From Oscillospiraceae bacterium (GTDB lineage Bacteria; Bacillota; Clostridia; Oscillospirales; Acutalibacteraceae), in the NCBI GenBank assembly GCA_015065445.1, contig SVQF01000004.1, forward strand, positions 1-56,440: a stretch of DNA of 56,440 bases. The letters are read 5' to 3'. Of the stretch, positions 6,648 to 24,812 are shown piece by piece; the first letter of the stretch is position 1, and every line of letters starts with the position of its first letter. Under the pieces are notes generated by a model that saw only the letters and a program-made list of their open reading frames with translations, ran no database searches and had not been told where the DNA came from. The translations under genes and the position numbers were made by a program.

Positions 6648-9600
6648 TCAGTTAACAAGCTCAATATAGGTTACGTCCATATTTTTTGTTTTTGGCGTTT
6701 TGCCGTCATATTTGTAAGTATAGGATATGCCTAACTGAGCGTTGTTTTTGCTTGTTGCATTTGTTTTGATAATATCGCCGCTGTATCTGTAATACTTCCA
6801 TGTTTCATACTGATTACGGTAGCCGCTCTTATTTTCTTTGGAATAGGTGAGCAAAAGAGCATTGTTAATGTCCAAGCCTGCAGACTTGAATTCTTCTTTA
6901 AGTGAGCCTGTATGAATTCTTCTTACAAAGTCGTTGTACTCATTCTCCGTCCAGTTTCTGTAACCGGAGCCGTTTTTGATTGCTCCGCCGAAGCCGTCAT
7001 AGTTCGAGATAGACTTTGTATCCCTTAAAGTTATTCTTTTACCTAAAACATAGCTGTAAGGGAGGCAGTTTGATAAATCTTCATCATACGATGCTGTGCG
7101 GCAATGCATATGCAAAACAACTTCGCTCGTGGTACCAATATTTAAGTTGTATAAGTTTACACAATCTTCAGCATTATCATCAAAATAAATATCTGTAATC
7201 GCTTCGTTTGTTTTGCCTTCTTTCGAGAAGTGAATAAAGTTTCTGACTAATGGCGGTGGCGGTGTAGTGCTTCCGCAGTTAAGATTACCGTAATCATTTA
7301 TAAATGCTTCATCACCTACGCAATTACACATCATACATATTATGCCTTTATAGTTGCTTCTTCTAATCGGATTGAAAAAAAGATTCGGTGAATAAGGCTG
7401 AGTGGTAGTGGTAAGCGTTTTTATGGCTTCGCTTGGTTTGTGCGTCGTTTTGTAACCGAGTAATACGATAAAGCCGCCTGCACCTTCGTTCAGATTTGTG
7501 GGGATTGGAGTAAAGCCTTTATCCGTAAGGAGTTTTTTAACTTCTTCTATATCGTCAGTGTCCTTGCCTGCAACAAGTAAATCACTAATATATGTTTCCG
7601 TGTCTTCGCCGTTTAAAGCAGCTTCAATCTTTTTTGCCGAATAGCCCACGTCTGAAAGCTCGTCAATCATATTGACTGCTTCTCTGTAGTCAGTTGTCAT
7701 ATTGGCAAAGTTTTTATTGTCGGGGTTCTTGTTCGCATTATATCTTACTGCAAAAACTGCAAGTGCCTTTGTCAACTGAGCTTTTGCGTATTCCCTTTGT
7801 GCCAAGCGGAACTCATAGCACTGCGAATCAAAGTTATATGTTAATGCACAGCTTTCATCATATAGCCTTAGCGGATTGTCGTTAGATGTTCTTTTAAGCA
7901 TCGAAGTAACTCTTTCATACCGAAGCTTTAATTCCGCAAAGTCGGCAGCAAAATCGCCATATTTGTCATCAGAAACATCGTCTTCCCGTGCAGAGATAAA
8001 TTTCATTATTCTCTCGTTATAAACGGCAAGCTCCTCGTCAGTTAAATCTTCGACCGTAATATCTTTATATTCAGGATATTCCTCTTGGATATCTTCGGCA
8101 GCTTGAGAATAAACGGTGAGCACGTCTCTGAGCTTCTTGTCAAACGTGTCAAATTCACTTTGATAGTTCTGAAGCATAATTCTGTAGTCATTGTTCTTCA
8201 GTTCTGCCAAATCGTTGCGAATGCTGATAAGGTCACTGTGGATTCCGTCAAGCTTTGTGTTAATTGCAGCAAATTCTTCCATAATCTGCTGATGCTCAGA
8301 TTTGATAACTCCCGTTACTTCCAAAACACATTTACCGATGTTATATACCTTGCCTGCAACGCCGCCCCAATAGAAGATTTTACCGATAAAAGTGTTTTTA
8401 CCTCTGGTATACTTCTGGATTTCAAGAAGCGTATCTGTGTTCAAAGTAACCTCTCTGCCAAGAGTTTCGCCGTTATAATCACGGTTGTTTGAAACTTCTT
8501 TTGAATTTTTGTCGCCCCAACTGTTAACGAGTGCTCCTGCAGCAAGGGTTACCGTACCGCTGAGGTCCATTGTTTCAGTCGACTGTCCGCTTGCGGGGAC
8601 AGAGAGAACAAGTGTGGCAACCGTATCGCTGTCAACCTTAACGGATTCGGTCTTTGCGTCCTTGAAGTCGTCTGCGTAGCTGACAGCGTTCGCATCAAGT
8701 TTTTCGTCAAAGGTTCCGCAATTTGCATAGAGTTTAAGCGTGATTTTGAAATTGTCGCCGTCTTTTTCAACATAGTCAAATACGGGGTAGAAACTTGCCT
8801 GAGACACCGAAACAGTAGTTTCATGCTTGCCGAGAGTCATTTTTTCACCGCCGATAACGTCGGCAAAATCGTTTACACTCTTAACTCCGTCTGCCGAAAC
8901 GGTAAGTTTAACAGTGTTTTCATCCGTCTTTTCGGCAGATTCAACCGTTGCACTGTTGATTTTTATATTGTCCTTTGTAAGCGAATCAATATCAGCCACA
9001 CCGTAAATCTTAAGTTCTGCATTGATTACGCCATTTTCATATTTAAGCGTTTCGCTGTCAATGTACGCACTTGCAAGCTGAATATTAATTTTTGAAGTAA
9101 CGTCGGCATATCCGTCTTTAATACCGCTCGGCTTAACGTTGACAGAGCCCCACTGGTACGCACCTGCTTCATTTCTGACAGGCGAACCTTTTAATTGAAC
9201 GGTGAGGTTTTTATCGGATGAGGATACGCTCTCAATCTTCATATCCGAAAAAGCATTGTCAAGATAAATATCTTTTTCGCTTATACCTTCCTCAAAGGCA
9301 CTGCCGTCAATTGCTAAAGCTACCTTTGTTTCCTTTGCGTTTGAAACAACACTGTCTATATCCGGAGTAAGCTTGATTTCAGGGAACTCTACCGCTACGT
9401 CAGCTGTGTTGTTTTCGCCCTCAATGTTCTTGAACAGAACCGTATAGCCTCCGGTTGCGTATTCGGCTGCTTTCTCGTCTGTAAAGGTTATTTCGCAGCC
9501 TTTATCGCCGCTTGCTTTAACACTTTCTACCTTGGCGGAAAAAGAATATAATTTATCAAGGTCAGCGGTTTGCTCCTCTTTTGAAGACTCTGTCTTTGCA

Positions 9601-22309: not shown

Positions 22310-22338
22310 TTGTTTTTGGCAGCGATAAAGTGTATAAT
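22310..22338 (+). promoter_or_regulatory. promoter of the RNA / reverse transcriptase locus
   Basis: TTGTTT (22310-22315), 17-bp spacer, TATAAT (22333-22338). The transcript would begin near 22345. Confidence 0.75.
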
Positions 22339-22370
22339 AAACTCGGAATACATATATGATTTGCAAAAAT

Positions 22371-22520
22371 CAGAGCCGGAATGCACTGCGGCAAACCGCA
22401 GTGTGCCTGTGTGGGTTAAAGTACAAGGGATTATATCACTTTGCAGGCAGTGCCTTTGTGTGCAGACCCGTATCGCATAAATGCGATTTTAAATCGTTTC
22501 CGGCTCTGTTTTATTTTTAC
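22371..22520 (+). ncRNA. folded RNA upstream of the reverse transcriptase
   Basis: An 11-bp closing stem, CAGAGCCGGAA (22371-22381) with TTCCGGCTCTG (22498-22508), encloses three elements: CACTGCGG-CAAA-CCGCAGTG (22384-22403); a longer arm closed by GGGT (22413-22416)/ACCC (22466-22469) with inner ACAAGG/CCTTTGT; and ATCGCA-TAAA-TGCGAT (22472-22487). The closing stem is followed by TTTTATTTTT, so the RNA could end there by intrinsic termination. This resembles the layout of retron or DRT noncoding RNAs, which are closed by a long inverted repeat just before the RT gene. The family is not identified. Confidence 0.7.
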
Positions 22521-22521
22521 T

Positions 22522-23757
22522 ATGGACATACTTAACAGCACCCTCGATTACGGCGAATGGCTGCGTTTTTTTGATTACAAAAAAAGCGGCGGACACCTTC
22601 GCCGTGCCGAAGAACAAGAGTTAAAAGAGTTTATTGAAAACAAGCGTTATCTGCCTGTTGCCCAAAAGCTGTGCAGCGGCGGCTGTTTCGGTGTGCCTGC
22701 GGCATTGCAGGTAAACAAAAGCAGCACCAACAGAAAACGCACCGTTTTTACTTTTGCTGACGACGAAAAAAACGTTCAGAAATTTATTGCGTACAAGCTG
22801 CTGGAATACGACGGTATTTTTGCCGACAACCTGTATTCTTTCAGGCGGAATATGGGCGTAAAAAAGGCTGTAATACGGCTTTTTTATGCAAAAGGAATAC
22901 AAAATATGTATTCGTACAAGGTGGATATTTCGGACTACTTTAACTCCGTTTCGCCCGAAATTCTTTTGCCCGAACTCAAAAAGGTGCTGAGGGATGATTT
23001 GCCGCTGTACCGTGTTATTGAAGATATGCTGAACTGCCCGTTTGCCATATCCGACGGTACAAAGGCTGAGATGAAAAAAGGAATTCTTGCAGGGTCGCCG
23101 CTTTCGGGGTTTTTAGCAAATCTGTACCTTGAGGGGCTTGACCGCCATTTTGAAGAAAACGGCGTGCTTTACGCACGGTACTCGGACGACATCATTATAT
23201 TTGCAGAAAGCGAAGACGAAATCGAAAGGCACGCAGAATACCTGAACGACTTTTTAAAAAGCCGCAGGCTCGGTATCAACGAACGCAAGGTTTGCCGCAC
23301 GAATCCGCATGAAAAGTGGACTTTTCTCGGGTTCAGTTACAGCAACGGCGTTATTGATATTGCAGAGGTTTCAAAGGACAAACTCAAAAAGAAAATGCGT
23401 CGCAAGGCACGGGCTCTTGTGCGGTGGAAAAGACGCAAAGGTGCGTCTGCAGAGCGTGCTGCGGCAGCGTTTATAAGATATTTTAACAAAAAGCTTTACG
23501 AAAATGACGCTATGCACGAAATCACCTGGTGCAGGTGGTATTTTCCCGTAATTACAACGAGCTCCGGTCTGCGTGAAATTGATGAATACACGCAGCAGTG
23601 CATAAGATATATCGCAACAGAAAAGCAGAACAAAGGCAAGTTCCGATTTAAGTATGCAGATATGAAATCGCTCGGCTACACAACGCTTGTAAACAATTAT
23701 TATAAATTCAAAAGCACAGGAAAAACAGATTATGAAATCCGAGAAAAAACGAATTGA
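22522..23757 (+). CDS. reverse transcriptase, stand-alone (group II-like/unknown group)
   Basis: 411 residues. The ATG at 22522 directly follows the U-run of the upstream RNA and has no Shine-Dalgarno site; an upstream TTG at 22441 would start inside the RNA fold. RT motifs: SFRRNMGVKKAV (106-117), motif A KVDISDYFNS with Asp135, LAGSPLSGFLAN (189-200) in place of the QGxxxSP block, and the catalytic YSDD (220-223, where YADD is usual), then FLGFSY. A basic thumb (KLKKKMRRKARALVRWKRRK) and a C-terminal block ending LGYTTLVNNYYKF follow. No maturase/endonuclease domain, no retron NAxxH or VTG motif and no DGR motif is seen. It overlaps a membrane acyltransferase gene by 26 bp. Confidence 0.9.
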   Translation: MDILNSTLDYGEWLRFFDYKKSGGHLRRAEEQELKEFIENKRYLPVAQKLCSGGCFGVPAALQVNKSSTNRKRTVFTFADDEKNVQKFIAYKLLEYDGIFADNLYSFRRNMGVKKAVIRLFYAKGIQNMYSYKVDISDYFNSVSPEILLPELKKVLRDDLPLYRVIEDMLNCPFAISDGTKAEMKKGILAGSPLSGFLANLYLEGLDRHFEENGVLYARYSDDIIIFAESEDEIERHAEYLNDFLKSRRLGINERKVCRTNPHEKWTFLGFSYSNGVIDIAEVSKDKLKKKMRRKARALVRWKRRKGASAERAAAAFIRYFNKKLYENDAMHEITWCRWYFPVITTSSGLREIDEYTQQCIRYIATEKQNKGKFRFKYADMKSLGYTTLVNNYYKFKSTGKTDYEIREKTN

Positions 23758-24796
23758 AAGTATTGATATTGCAAAAGGAATAGGCATACTTCTTGTTATA
23801 GTCGGACACCTTGTAAACCCTAAAGAACAGGCTGAAAGCAGTATAATTTTTGCATTCCATATGCCGCTTTTCTTTATGCTGTCGGGCGTGTTTGCGGCAA
23901 GCAAAAAAAGTTTTGCCCAGAGCGTAAAAGGGCTGCTCAAAGCGGTGTACGTGCCTTACATCGCAGTGGTGATAGTTGACGCTGTTATCCATTATTTTAT
24001 TGACCGTGCGTCAGGCACACCCGATATTCACGAAATTGTGATTCACACGCTTGAATGTGCAGTCGGCGTACAGATTACATACGCTAATGTGGCAGTGTGG
24101 TTTTTGTTTGCACTGTTTGTAATAAAAGCCGTATTCATTCTGATTAACCTGATTAAAAACAAGGCAGTTGTCAACACGGTAGTGTTTGTTATTGCGGCAG
24201 GATGTATGGCGTTTGTGCTGACGCTGAAACAGGAGGAAATGCCTAAAAACATTATATATATCGCCGCCACTGCGGGATTTGTATTTTTCAGCCTTGGCTA
24301 CTTTGCACGGGACGTTATACGCTCGCTTGAGTCAACTGCCGAAAAAACAAAACTGCCGCTTGTTGCAGCCGTGCCGCTTGCGGCATTGCTTGTGTTTTCC
24401 GCACTCGAAAACGGGTACGTTGACACACGTGTTTACAACTTTGCAAACCCCGTTTTGTATTTTGCAAACGCCGTTATCGGCTGCTACGTTGTAACCGTTT
24501 TTTGTGCGTATATGGCAAACTGCAGGGGTGCAGTTTTAAGAGGCGTTAAAAAGGTGCTGACATTCTTTGGCGAAAACAGCATTGTAATTCTTATGGTACA
24601 CTACCCGATTGCACGCAAGCTCACAAAGGCACTGTATGAGCATTACGGTATTCAGGATTATCTGTTTTACCGTTCAAACGAACTTGTGCTGTTTATAGTA
24701 ATAACGCTGTTAATGGTTCCTGTAATATGGTTTTTCAACAGATTTTTGTATTTCATTATCGGCAGAAAAAAGCCGCAAAAAAATCCATCGGATTAA
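23732..24796 (+). CDS. membrane acyltransferase family 3 protein
   Basis: 354 residues. The start overlaps the RT gene by 26 bp; the opening KKRIESIDIAKGIGILLVI followed by GHL is the normal N-terminus of this family, so the overlap is real. His27 in that first segment is the conserved family histidine, and FHMPLFFMLSG is the second signature. About ten membrane segments follow. Such proteins transfer acetyl or other acyl groups to sugars or lipids of the cell surface. Overlap with the RT gene implies translational coupling, so it is the candidate effector or partner of the RT. Alternatively it is an unrelated envelope gene that shares the transcript. Confidence 0.88.
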   Translation: MKSEKKRIESIDIAKGIGILLVIVGHLVNPKEQAESSIIFAFHMPLFFMLSGVFAASKKSFAQSVKGLLKAVYVPYIAVVIVDAVIHYFIDRASGTPDIHEIVIHTLECAVGVQITYANVAVWFLFALFVIKAVFILINLIKNKAVVNTVVFVIAAGCMAFVLTLKQEEMPKNIIYIAATAGFVFFSLGYFARDVIRSLESTAEKTKLPLVAAVPLAALLVFSALENGYVDTRVYNFANPVLYFANAVIGCYVVTVFCAYMANCRGAVLRGVKKVLTFFGENSIVILMVHYPIARKLTKALYEHYGIQDYLFYRSNELVLFIVITLLMVPVIWFFNRFLYFIIGRKKPQKNPSD

Positions 24797-24812
24797 TTAT
24801 CCGATGGATTTT
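24777..24812. terminator. bidirectional terminator between convergent genes
   Basis: AAAATCCATCGGAT-TAATT-ATCCGATGGATTTT, overlapping the acyltransferase stop codon and serving the minus-strand gene at 24815 as well. Confidence 0.92.

Follow-up and report, generated by a model that had tools for sequence, protein, structure and literature searches.

A 56,440-nt stretch of DNA from an Oscillospiraceae bacterium (GCA_015065445.1, contig SVQF01000004.1; hereafter the window), which is one contig of a 1.98-Mb draft genome, carries a structured noncoding RNA directly followed by a stand-alone reverse transcriptase (RT) gene. The RNA matches the Rfam family RT-5 and the RT matches the PADLOC profile RT_UG26; therefore, both parts belong to catalogued families. 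An earlier note on this DNA had rightly seen a stand-alone RT with its own structured RNA just before it, but had taken the locus for a unit of unknown type. We find a genuine unit from known, apparently unstudied families; literature searches returned no experimental study of UG26 RTs or of RT-5 RNA. We consider it fairly probable that RNA and RT form a two-part ribonucleoprotein (RNP), in which the RT would copy a short RNA loop into repetitive complementary DNA (cDNA). The useful part beyond the catalogued families is what the homologues add at the family level, namely a closing stem, a pseudoknot and a partner gene.

The RNA and its reverse transcriptase

The features of the unit are the following.

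22371..22508, + strand: RT-5 / UG26 noncoding RNA, proposed full extent 138 nt (Rfam match, fold z -5.2, covariation)
22371..22381, + strand: closing stem P1, 5' strand, pairing with 22498-22508; outside the Rfam model, with family covariation
22383..22404, + strand: hairpin P2, with 9 bp in the window and 2 pairs in the family model
22405..22411, + strand: pseudoknot strand GCCUGUG, pairing with 22442-22448 with two wobbles
22442..22448, + strand: pseudoknot strand UGCAGGC, in the P4 loop (family pair counts)
22472..22487, + strand: hairpin P5, AUCGCA-UAAA-UGCGAU (fold and family alignment)
22488..22497, + strand: single-stranded P5-P1 joint, UUUAAAUCGU, with the family core; candidate template loop by its position relative to DRT10, a defence-associated reverse transcriptase (DRT)
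22498..22508, + strand: closing stem P1, 3' strand (family covariation)
22522..23757, + strand: reverse transcriptase of the UG26 group, 411 aa, YSDD (PADLOC RT_UG26, PF00078, AlphaFold2 model)

A scan of the whole window at Rfam cut-offs gave two matches, one tRNA and the RT-5 RNA, the latter (RF03026) at 22401-22501 with 66 bits against the curators' cut-off of 45.7. RF03026 has the same core helices as the window RNA. Its 104 positions do not reach the 11-bp closing stem, and the structure line printed for it lacks a pseudoknot. With about 138 nt, the window RNA is close to the roughly 140 nt proposed earlier, and its closing stem and pseudoknot extend the catalogued RT-5 description. The closing stem P1 pairs CAGAGCCGGAA (22371-22381) with TTCCGGCTCTG (22498-22508), and the T-rich run at 22509-22518, directly 3' of the RNA, is the U-run already noticed in the earlier note. 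Positions 22371-22508 fold at -58.3 kcal/mol, compared with -38.8 +/- 3.8 kcal/mol in 300 dinucleotide shuffles, none of which was as low (z -5.2). The minimum-energy fold recovers P1, P2 and P5 and does not recover the conserved P3 and P4.

Conservation was assessed in a homologue set of 100 loci. Besides the window, these are 19 stretches taken from whole genomes and the best 80 of at least 391 confirmed relatives from a genome scan. Judged by their titles, Clostridia predominate among the scan relatives, which also include some Bacteroidales and Prevotella; many come from rumen and gut. At least two pairs (L035/L082 and L023/L113) are probably one locus each, drawn from two collections, with identical RNA-model scores. 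A covariance model that includes the closing stem, built from 22 relatives, matches 95 of the 100 loci, window included. The five loci without a model match are L115; L122 and L144, which have too little sequence upstream of the RT; L038, where an 11-bp closing stem is visible by eye; and L040, whose RT is distant (29% identity). RNA and RT are genetically linked: 94 of the 95 RNAs share the strand of the RT, 89 of them with their end no more than 181 nt from the RT start, and the other five 583 to 7,286 nt away. The distant RNAs are those of L147, L027, L029, L075 and L078, and the one RNA on the opposite strand is that of L110. Besides, a locus in another genome of the same genus (L025, genome G007) keeps an RT-5 RNA match at 9181-9304 on the minus strand, together with RT similarity over the first 26 residues only, and is a remnant.

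The RNA architecture is conserved as well. In 93 distinct rows 95.3% of the cells are paired and both-side changes occur in 40 of 43 pairs; the covariation is 0.576, compared with 0.214 +/- 0.006 in shuffles and 0.080-0.118 with slid partners. Because the modelled helices guided the alignment, these counts favour them. In the same rows the closing stem, the 11-bp repeat described in the earlier note, shows both-side changes in all 11 pairs, with 96.6% of its cells paired. A 7-bp pseudoknot is formed by 5' GCCUGCR and, within the P4 loop, YGCAGGC. It is paired in 98.4% of its cells, and both-side changes occur in six of its seven pairs. The covariance model lacks this pseudoknot, and the alignment was therefore made without regard to it. 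Owing to its long P2, the row of the window is wrongly placed at the 5' end of the alignment (start 22386), and its closing stem was checked by folding instead. By eye, L096, L118, L123, L130 and L133 have a longer internal loop before P4, some of them with an apparent extra hairpin.

The RT matches RT_UG26 with an E-value of 1.7e-159 and 529 bits, its residues 1-398 covering profile positions 1-397 of 398. The next best PADLOC profile gives 115 bits and the best other UG profile (UG17) 101 bits; nothing was found that sets the window RT apart from the RT_UG26 group. It contains a PF00078 domain with intact catalytic residues, and its AlphaFold2 model has a predicted local distance difference test score of 90.9. 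The YSDD and LAGSPLS motifs read earlier are present, and the retron motifs NAxxH and VTG are absent. In a tree of 47 RTs, the 17 UG26 rows form one clade (support 100/99), distinct from all other sampled RTs, among them three RTs with retron profiles that group in another clade. This tree leaves out eight rows (duplicates, fragments, the window RT fetched again, or no YxDD), has no row from loci L176, L185 and L188, no RTs of abortive infection systems and no named RTs of diversity-generating retroelements, and only 10 of its non-UG26 RTs are typed by profile; the UG17 and DRT9 profile searches for reference RTs mostly gave presumed group II intron RTs, often with many copies per genome. The ATG follows the RNA at once and, in agreement with the earlier reading, lacks a Shine-Dalgarno-like motif immediately before it; 42 of 94 RT genes of the family carry such a motif within 20 nt. 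The same genome has another, divergent RT gene (L196, G000:C75:1256-1804), which matches only the generic PADLOC RT profile.

A candidate template loop and the alternatives

PADLOC files UG26 (RT_UG26, PDLC03764) under DRT, as a candidate defence group. The characterised class 2 DRTs (DRT2, DRT3a, DRT9 and DRT10) have a noncoding RNA encoded in cis beside the RT, as also found for UG26 in the 95 loci above, and these four are reported to copy their noncoding RNA. DRT10 (UG17, noncoding RNA and SLATT) resembles the UG26 loci in RT, structured RNA and small partner gene; its RNA is 137 nt long, with a large stem-loop bearing four smaller ones (PMC12632851). There, the partner is SLATT and the RNA lies upstream of it, while in UG26 the partner gene precedes the RNA and its product is predicted to fold differently. 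According to PMC12483538, DRT9 (UG28) has a U-tract where UG26 has a UUUAA core; the profiles also differ in length (488 for DRT9, 398 for UG26).

We propose that the RNA would be made from a promoter directly upstream or, in many relatives, together with the small partner gene, and that the RT encoded next door would bind it. The RT would then copy a short single-stranded part of the RNA over and over, yielding repetitive cDNA as DRT3a, DRT9 and DRT10 do, perhaps primed by the RT protein itself as in DRT9 and DRT10; Y378, kept in 93 of 96 RTs, is one candidate residue for a link to the DNA. By analogy with these systems, the likeliest template would be the P5-P1 joint, which is short, single-stranded and conserved in its UUUAA core: the core positions U-U-A-A are kept in 87, 72, 92 and 90 of 95 rows.

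Several observations weigh against this proposal. The solved fold nearest to the RT model is a group II intron RT and not a DRT. In the tree, a DRT9 fragment is sister to UG26 at 94/75 on a long branch, a weak placement; this fragment (L159, E 3e-206) has an internal stop that leaves a 322-aa piece, and it is the only non-UG26 row of the UG or class 2 RTs. A DRT10-type A-B-A' repeat template is not supported in 92 rows, window row and duplicates left out, when compared with shuffled pairings. A match of at least 3 between the two ends of the P5-P1 joint is seen in 46 of these rows against 42.9 expected (p 0.17); for the internal loop that separates P3 from P4, the figures are 46 rows against 47.4 expected (p 0.70). 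The test is weak at the joint end because the terminal U's overlap the inner A-U pairs of P1. Finally, UG17 is reported in defence islands (PMC12632851), whereas the neighbours of UG26 show none. From 142 proteins (150-900 aa, the closest ones to either flank at the 80 genome loci), 113 were carried by hand, those left out being mostly long with a few shorter, and 110 passed a filter on length and stop. One of these 110 proteins, scanned without a control set, matches PADLOC at 1e-20, a methyltransferase; they contain 123 Pfam families, none in more than three proteins, and the first 25 families are mostly of ordinary metabolism and transport.

The missing repeat signature, and a candidate loop of only about 8-10 nt, would suit an RNA that acts as a scaffold or on/off switch and not as a template, with an RT that makes untemplated DNA or copies other RNAs. 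UUUAA could then be a protein-binding motif, and class 1 DRTs do make untemplated DNA (PMC13174585). Against this, those DRTs with a noncoding RNA that the consulted papers describe (DRT2, DRT3a, DRT9 and DRT10) copy it, and we regard the scaffold or switch as unlikely.

Retrons have a structured RNA with a long closing stem upstream of the RT, the same order as at this locus. A retron-like mode, with the closing stem as a1/a2 repeats and cDNA starting from the 2'-OH of an internal guanosine near the end of P1, would be in keeping with this arrangement and with the first modelled P2 base, directly after P1, which is G in 86 of 95 rows. Against it, NAxxH occurs in three and VTG in two of 96 family RTs, and neither in the window RT, as seen above; no NCBIfam retron model reaches its cut-off for this RT, and the RTs with retron profiles lie in their own clade. 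Such a mode is thus improbable, more so than the scaffold. A decayed or mobile group II intron RT is very improbable: no intron RNA family is found in the window at Rfam cut-offs, each of the 16 genomes of the class with an RT match has one copy, and the well-supported UG26 clade comes with a covarying RT-5 RNA instead.

Partner gene, promoter and acyltransferase

Apart from the RT, neighbour clustering found one widely recurrent family, in 51 loci, which is a protein of about 170 aa encoded 5' of the RNA. Its profile matches 67 of the 100 loci (e.g. L131:5323-5832, L136:2595-3143), 97 of which have at least 700 nt upstream for the search, and all 67 have the RNA. By eye, L139 and L151 have partner-like C-termini that the profile missed. 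The gene is absent from the window locus, and a search of the window's genome, run without a positive control, gave no match. Among 391 genomes of the class, the partner matches five, all among the 16 with the RT, and none of the 375 without an RT match; those five loci are rows of the query alignment, so this is not an independent test of association. Two genomes of the same genus have a syntenic RT locus; L023 carries the partner, and in L024 the gap is shorter by about 507 nt. Therefore, the partner gene comes or goes as a unit. At L110 and L147 the partner gene still adjoins the RNA, although the RT is separated from it. Partner-like domains stand, by eye, behind Cys-rich, zinc-ribbon-like N-termini in L077, L086, L103 (second copy at +1776) and L151, and L087 has two copies of the domain in one frame.

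In 45 aligned sequences, the partner opens with a short MGLFSKLFG-like segment, followed by a linker that varies and by a conserved C-terminal part, predicted as H-EEE-H-E-H; it has no Pfam name. Several of the best rows in a structural search are endonucleases, with middling Z scores (6.7 and below). The catalytic D ... E-x-K of PD-(D/E)XK nucleases is not seen: the second strand has no conserved acidic residue, and E123, present in 31 of 45, is followed by no conserved K two residues on. Possibly the partner is a degenerate PD-(D/E)XK fold. Where it occurs, the best candidate for binding the cDNA or the RNP is this protein. One might go further and see a separate, three-part class of RNA-guided DNA writing in gut and rumen bacteria, made of degenerate-nuclease partner, pseudoknotted RNA and RT. 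It would be a lone chromosomal cassette outside defence islands, its repetitive cDNA acting on the partner, maybe in a cellular role and not one against phages alone, and the window would hold a pared-down form of RNA and RT. We hold this wider view as doubtful, and the window's place in it equally so.

A possible promoter and an alternative -10 element precede the RNA.

22310..22338, + strand: possible sigma-70 promoter, TTGTTT (22310-22315), 17 nt, TATAAT (22333-22338), from the sequence
22355..22360, + strand: alternative -10 TATGAT, 10 nt before the closing stem (family -10 pattern)

The sigma-70 promoter claimed earlier stands in part. Its TATAAT is perfect, while TTGTTT matches the -35 hexamer at three of six positions. 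The pair is missing from the output of a consensus scan, which gives a weaker site overlapping it (22316-22343), and three sites in the region against 5.2 expected by chance. Of the 28 family loci that lack the partner gene, 17 have a -10-like hexamer (at least 5/6) 4-13 nt 5' of the RNA, compared with 11 of the 67 that carry it; the four bins further upstream have such hexamers in 9, 5, 5 and 2 of the 28. This pattern makes a promoter directly before the RNA credible.

The gene after the RT was offered in the earlier note as the effector or modified target of an RNA-templated RT.

23732..24796, + strand: acyltransferase-3 membrane protein, bystander (PF01757, E 2.7e-33; no relative in 99 loci)

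It does overlap the RT gene (stop at 23757) by 26 bp, and a terminator-like hairpin at 24780-24812 follows it, so co-transcription is plausible in this strain. Nevertheless, the overlap falls in the non-conserved tail of the RT (after residue ~399), and while the RNA is conserved beside the RTs, the acyltransferase is not, so that one half of the refuting condition set in the earlier note applies: the 99 other homologous loci have no relative of it at E<=1e-3, and relatives occur in 20 of 60 genomes of the genus. In G468, a genome of the same genus, a 44%-identical acyltransferase adjoins glyS (97% identical) and a 384-aa open reading frame homologous to two genes of the window, those of 265 and 111 aa. 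No RT or RNA is found in the 13 kb examined there, and the region has no counterpart of the window's 375-aa gene. On the other flank, the feoB-efflux pair stands without an RT in L065, L068 and L072, and the L066 contig stops 119 nt past the pair. Both flanking blocks occur without RT and RNA; therefore, RT and RNA lie between two independently existing blocks. The acyltransferase was rejected as a partner. It is a resident neighbour, and its role as effector or modified target is very unlikely.

Distribution and significance

The RT matches in the 16 class genomes are one copy each, and RT-5 RNA is found in 5 of 60 relatives. This patchy occurrence fits an accessory, horizontally spread cassette. 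Neither 72,556 plasmid records (at 1e-30) nor 50,697 phage records (at 1e-20) contain a match to the RT. In viral contigs, none of four pattern matches was confirmed with a single RT protein, and alignment found one weak relative, 27% identical. Since a cold-seep virus paper, PMC10504277, lists UG26 RTs in viruses, the absence from viruses is not general.

In summary, our searches gave no known product for the catalogued RT group UG26, and the stem, pseudoknot and conserved loop of its RNA mark the exact place to seek a template. The partner gene supplies a candidate effector for UG26, and dropping the acyltransferase from the model avoids a false lead.
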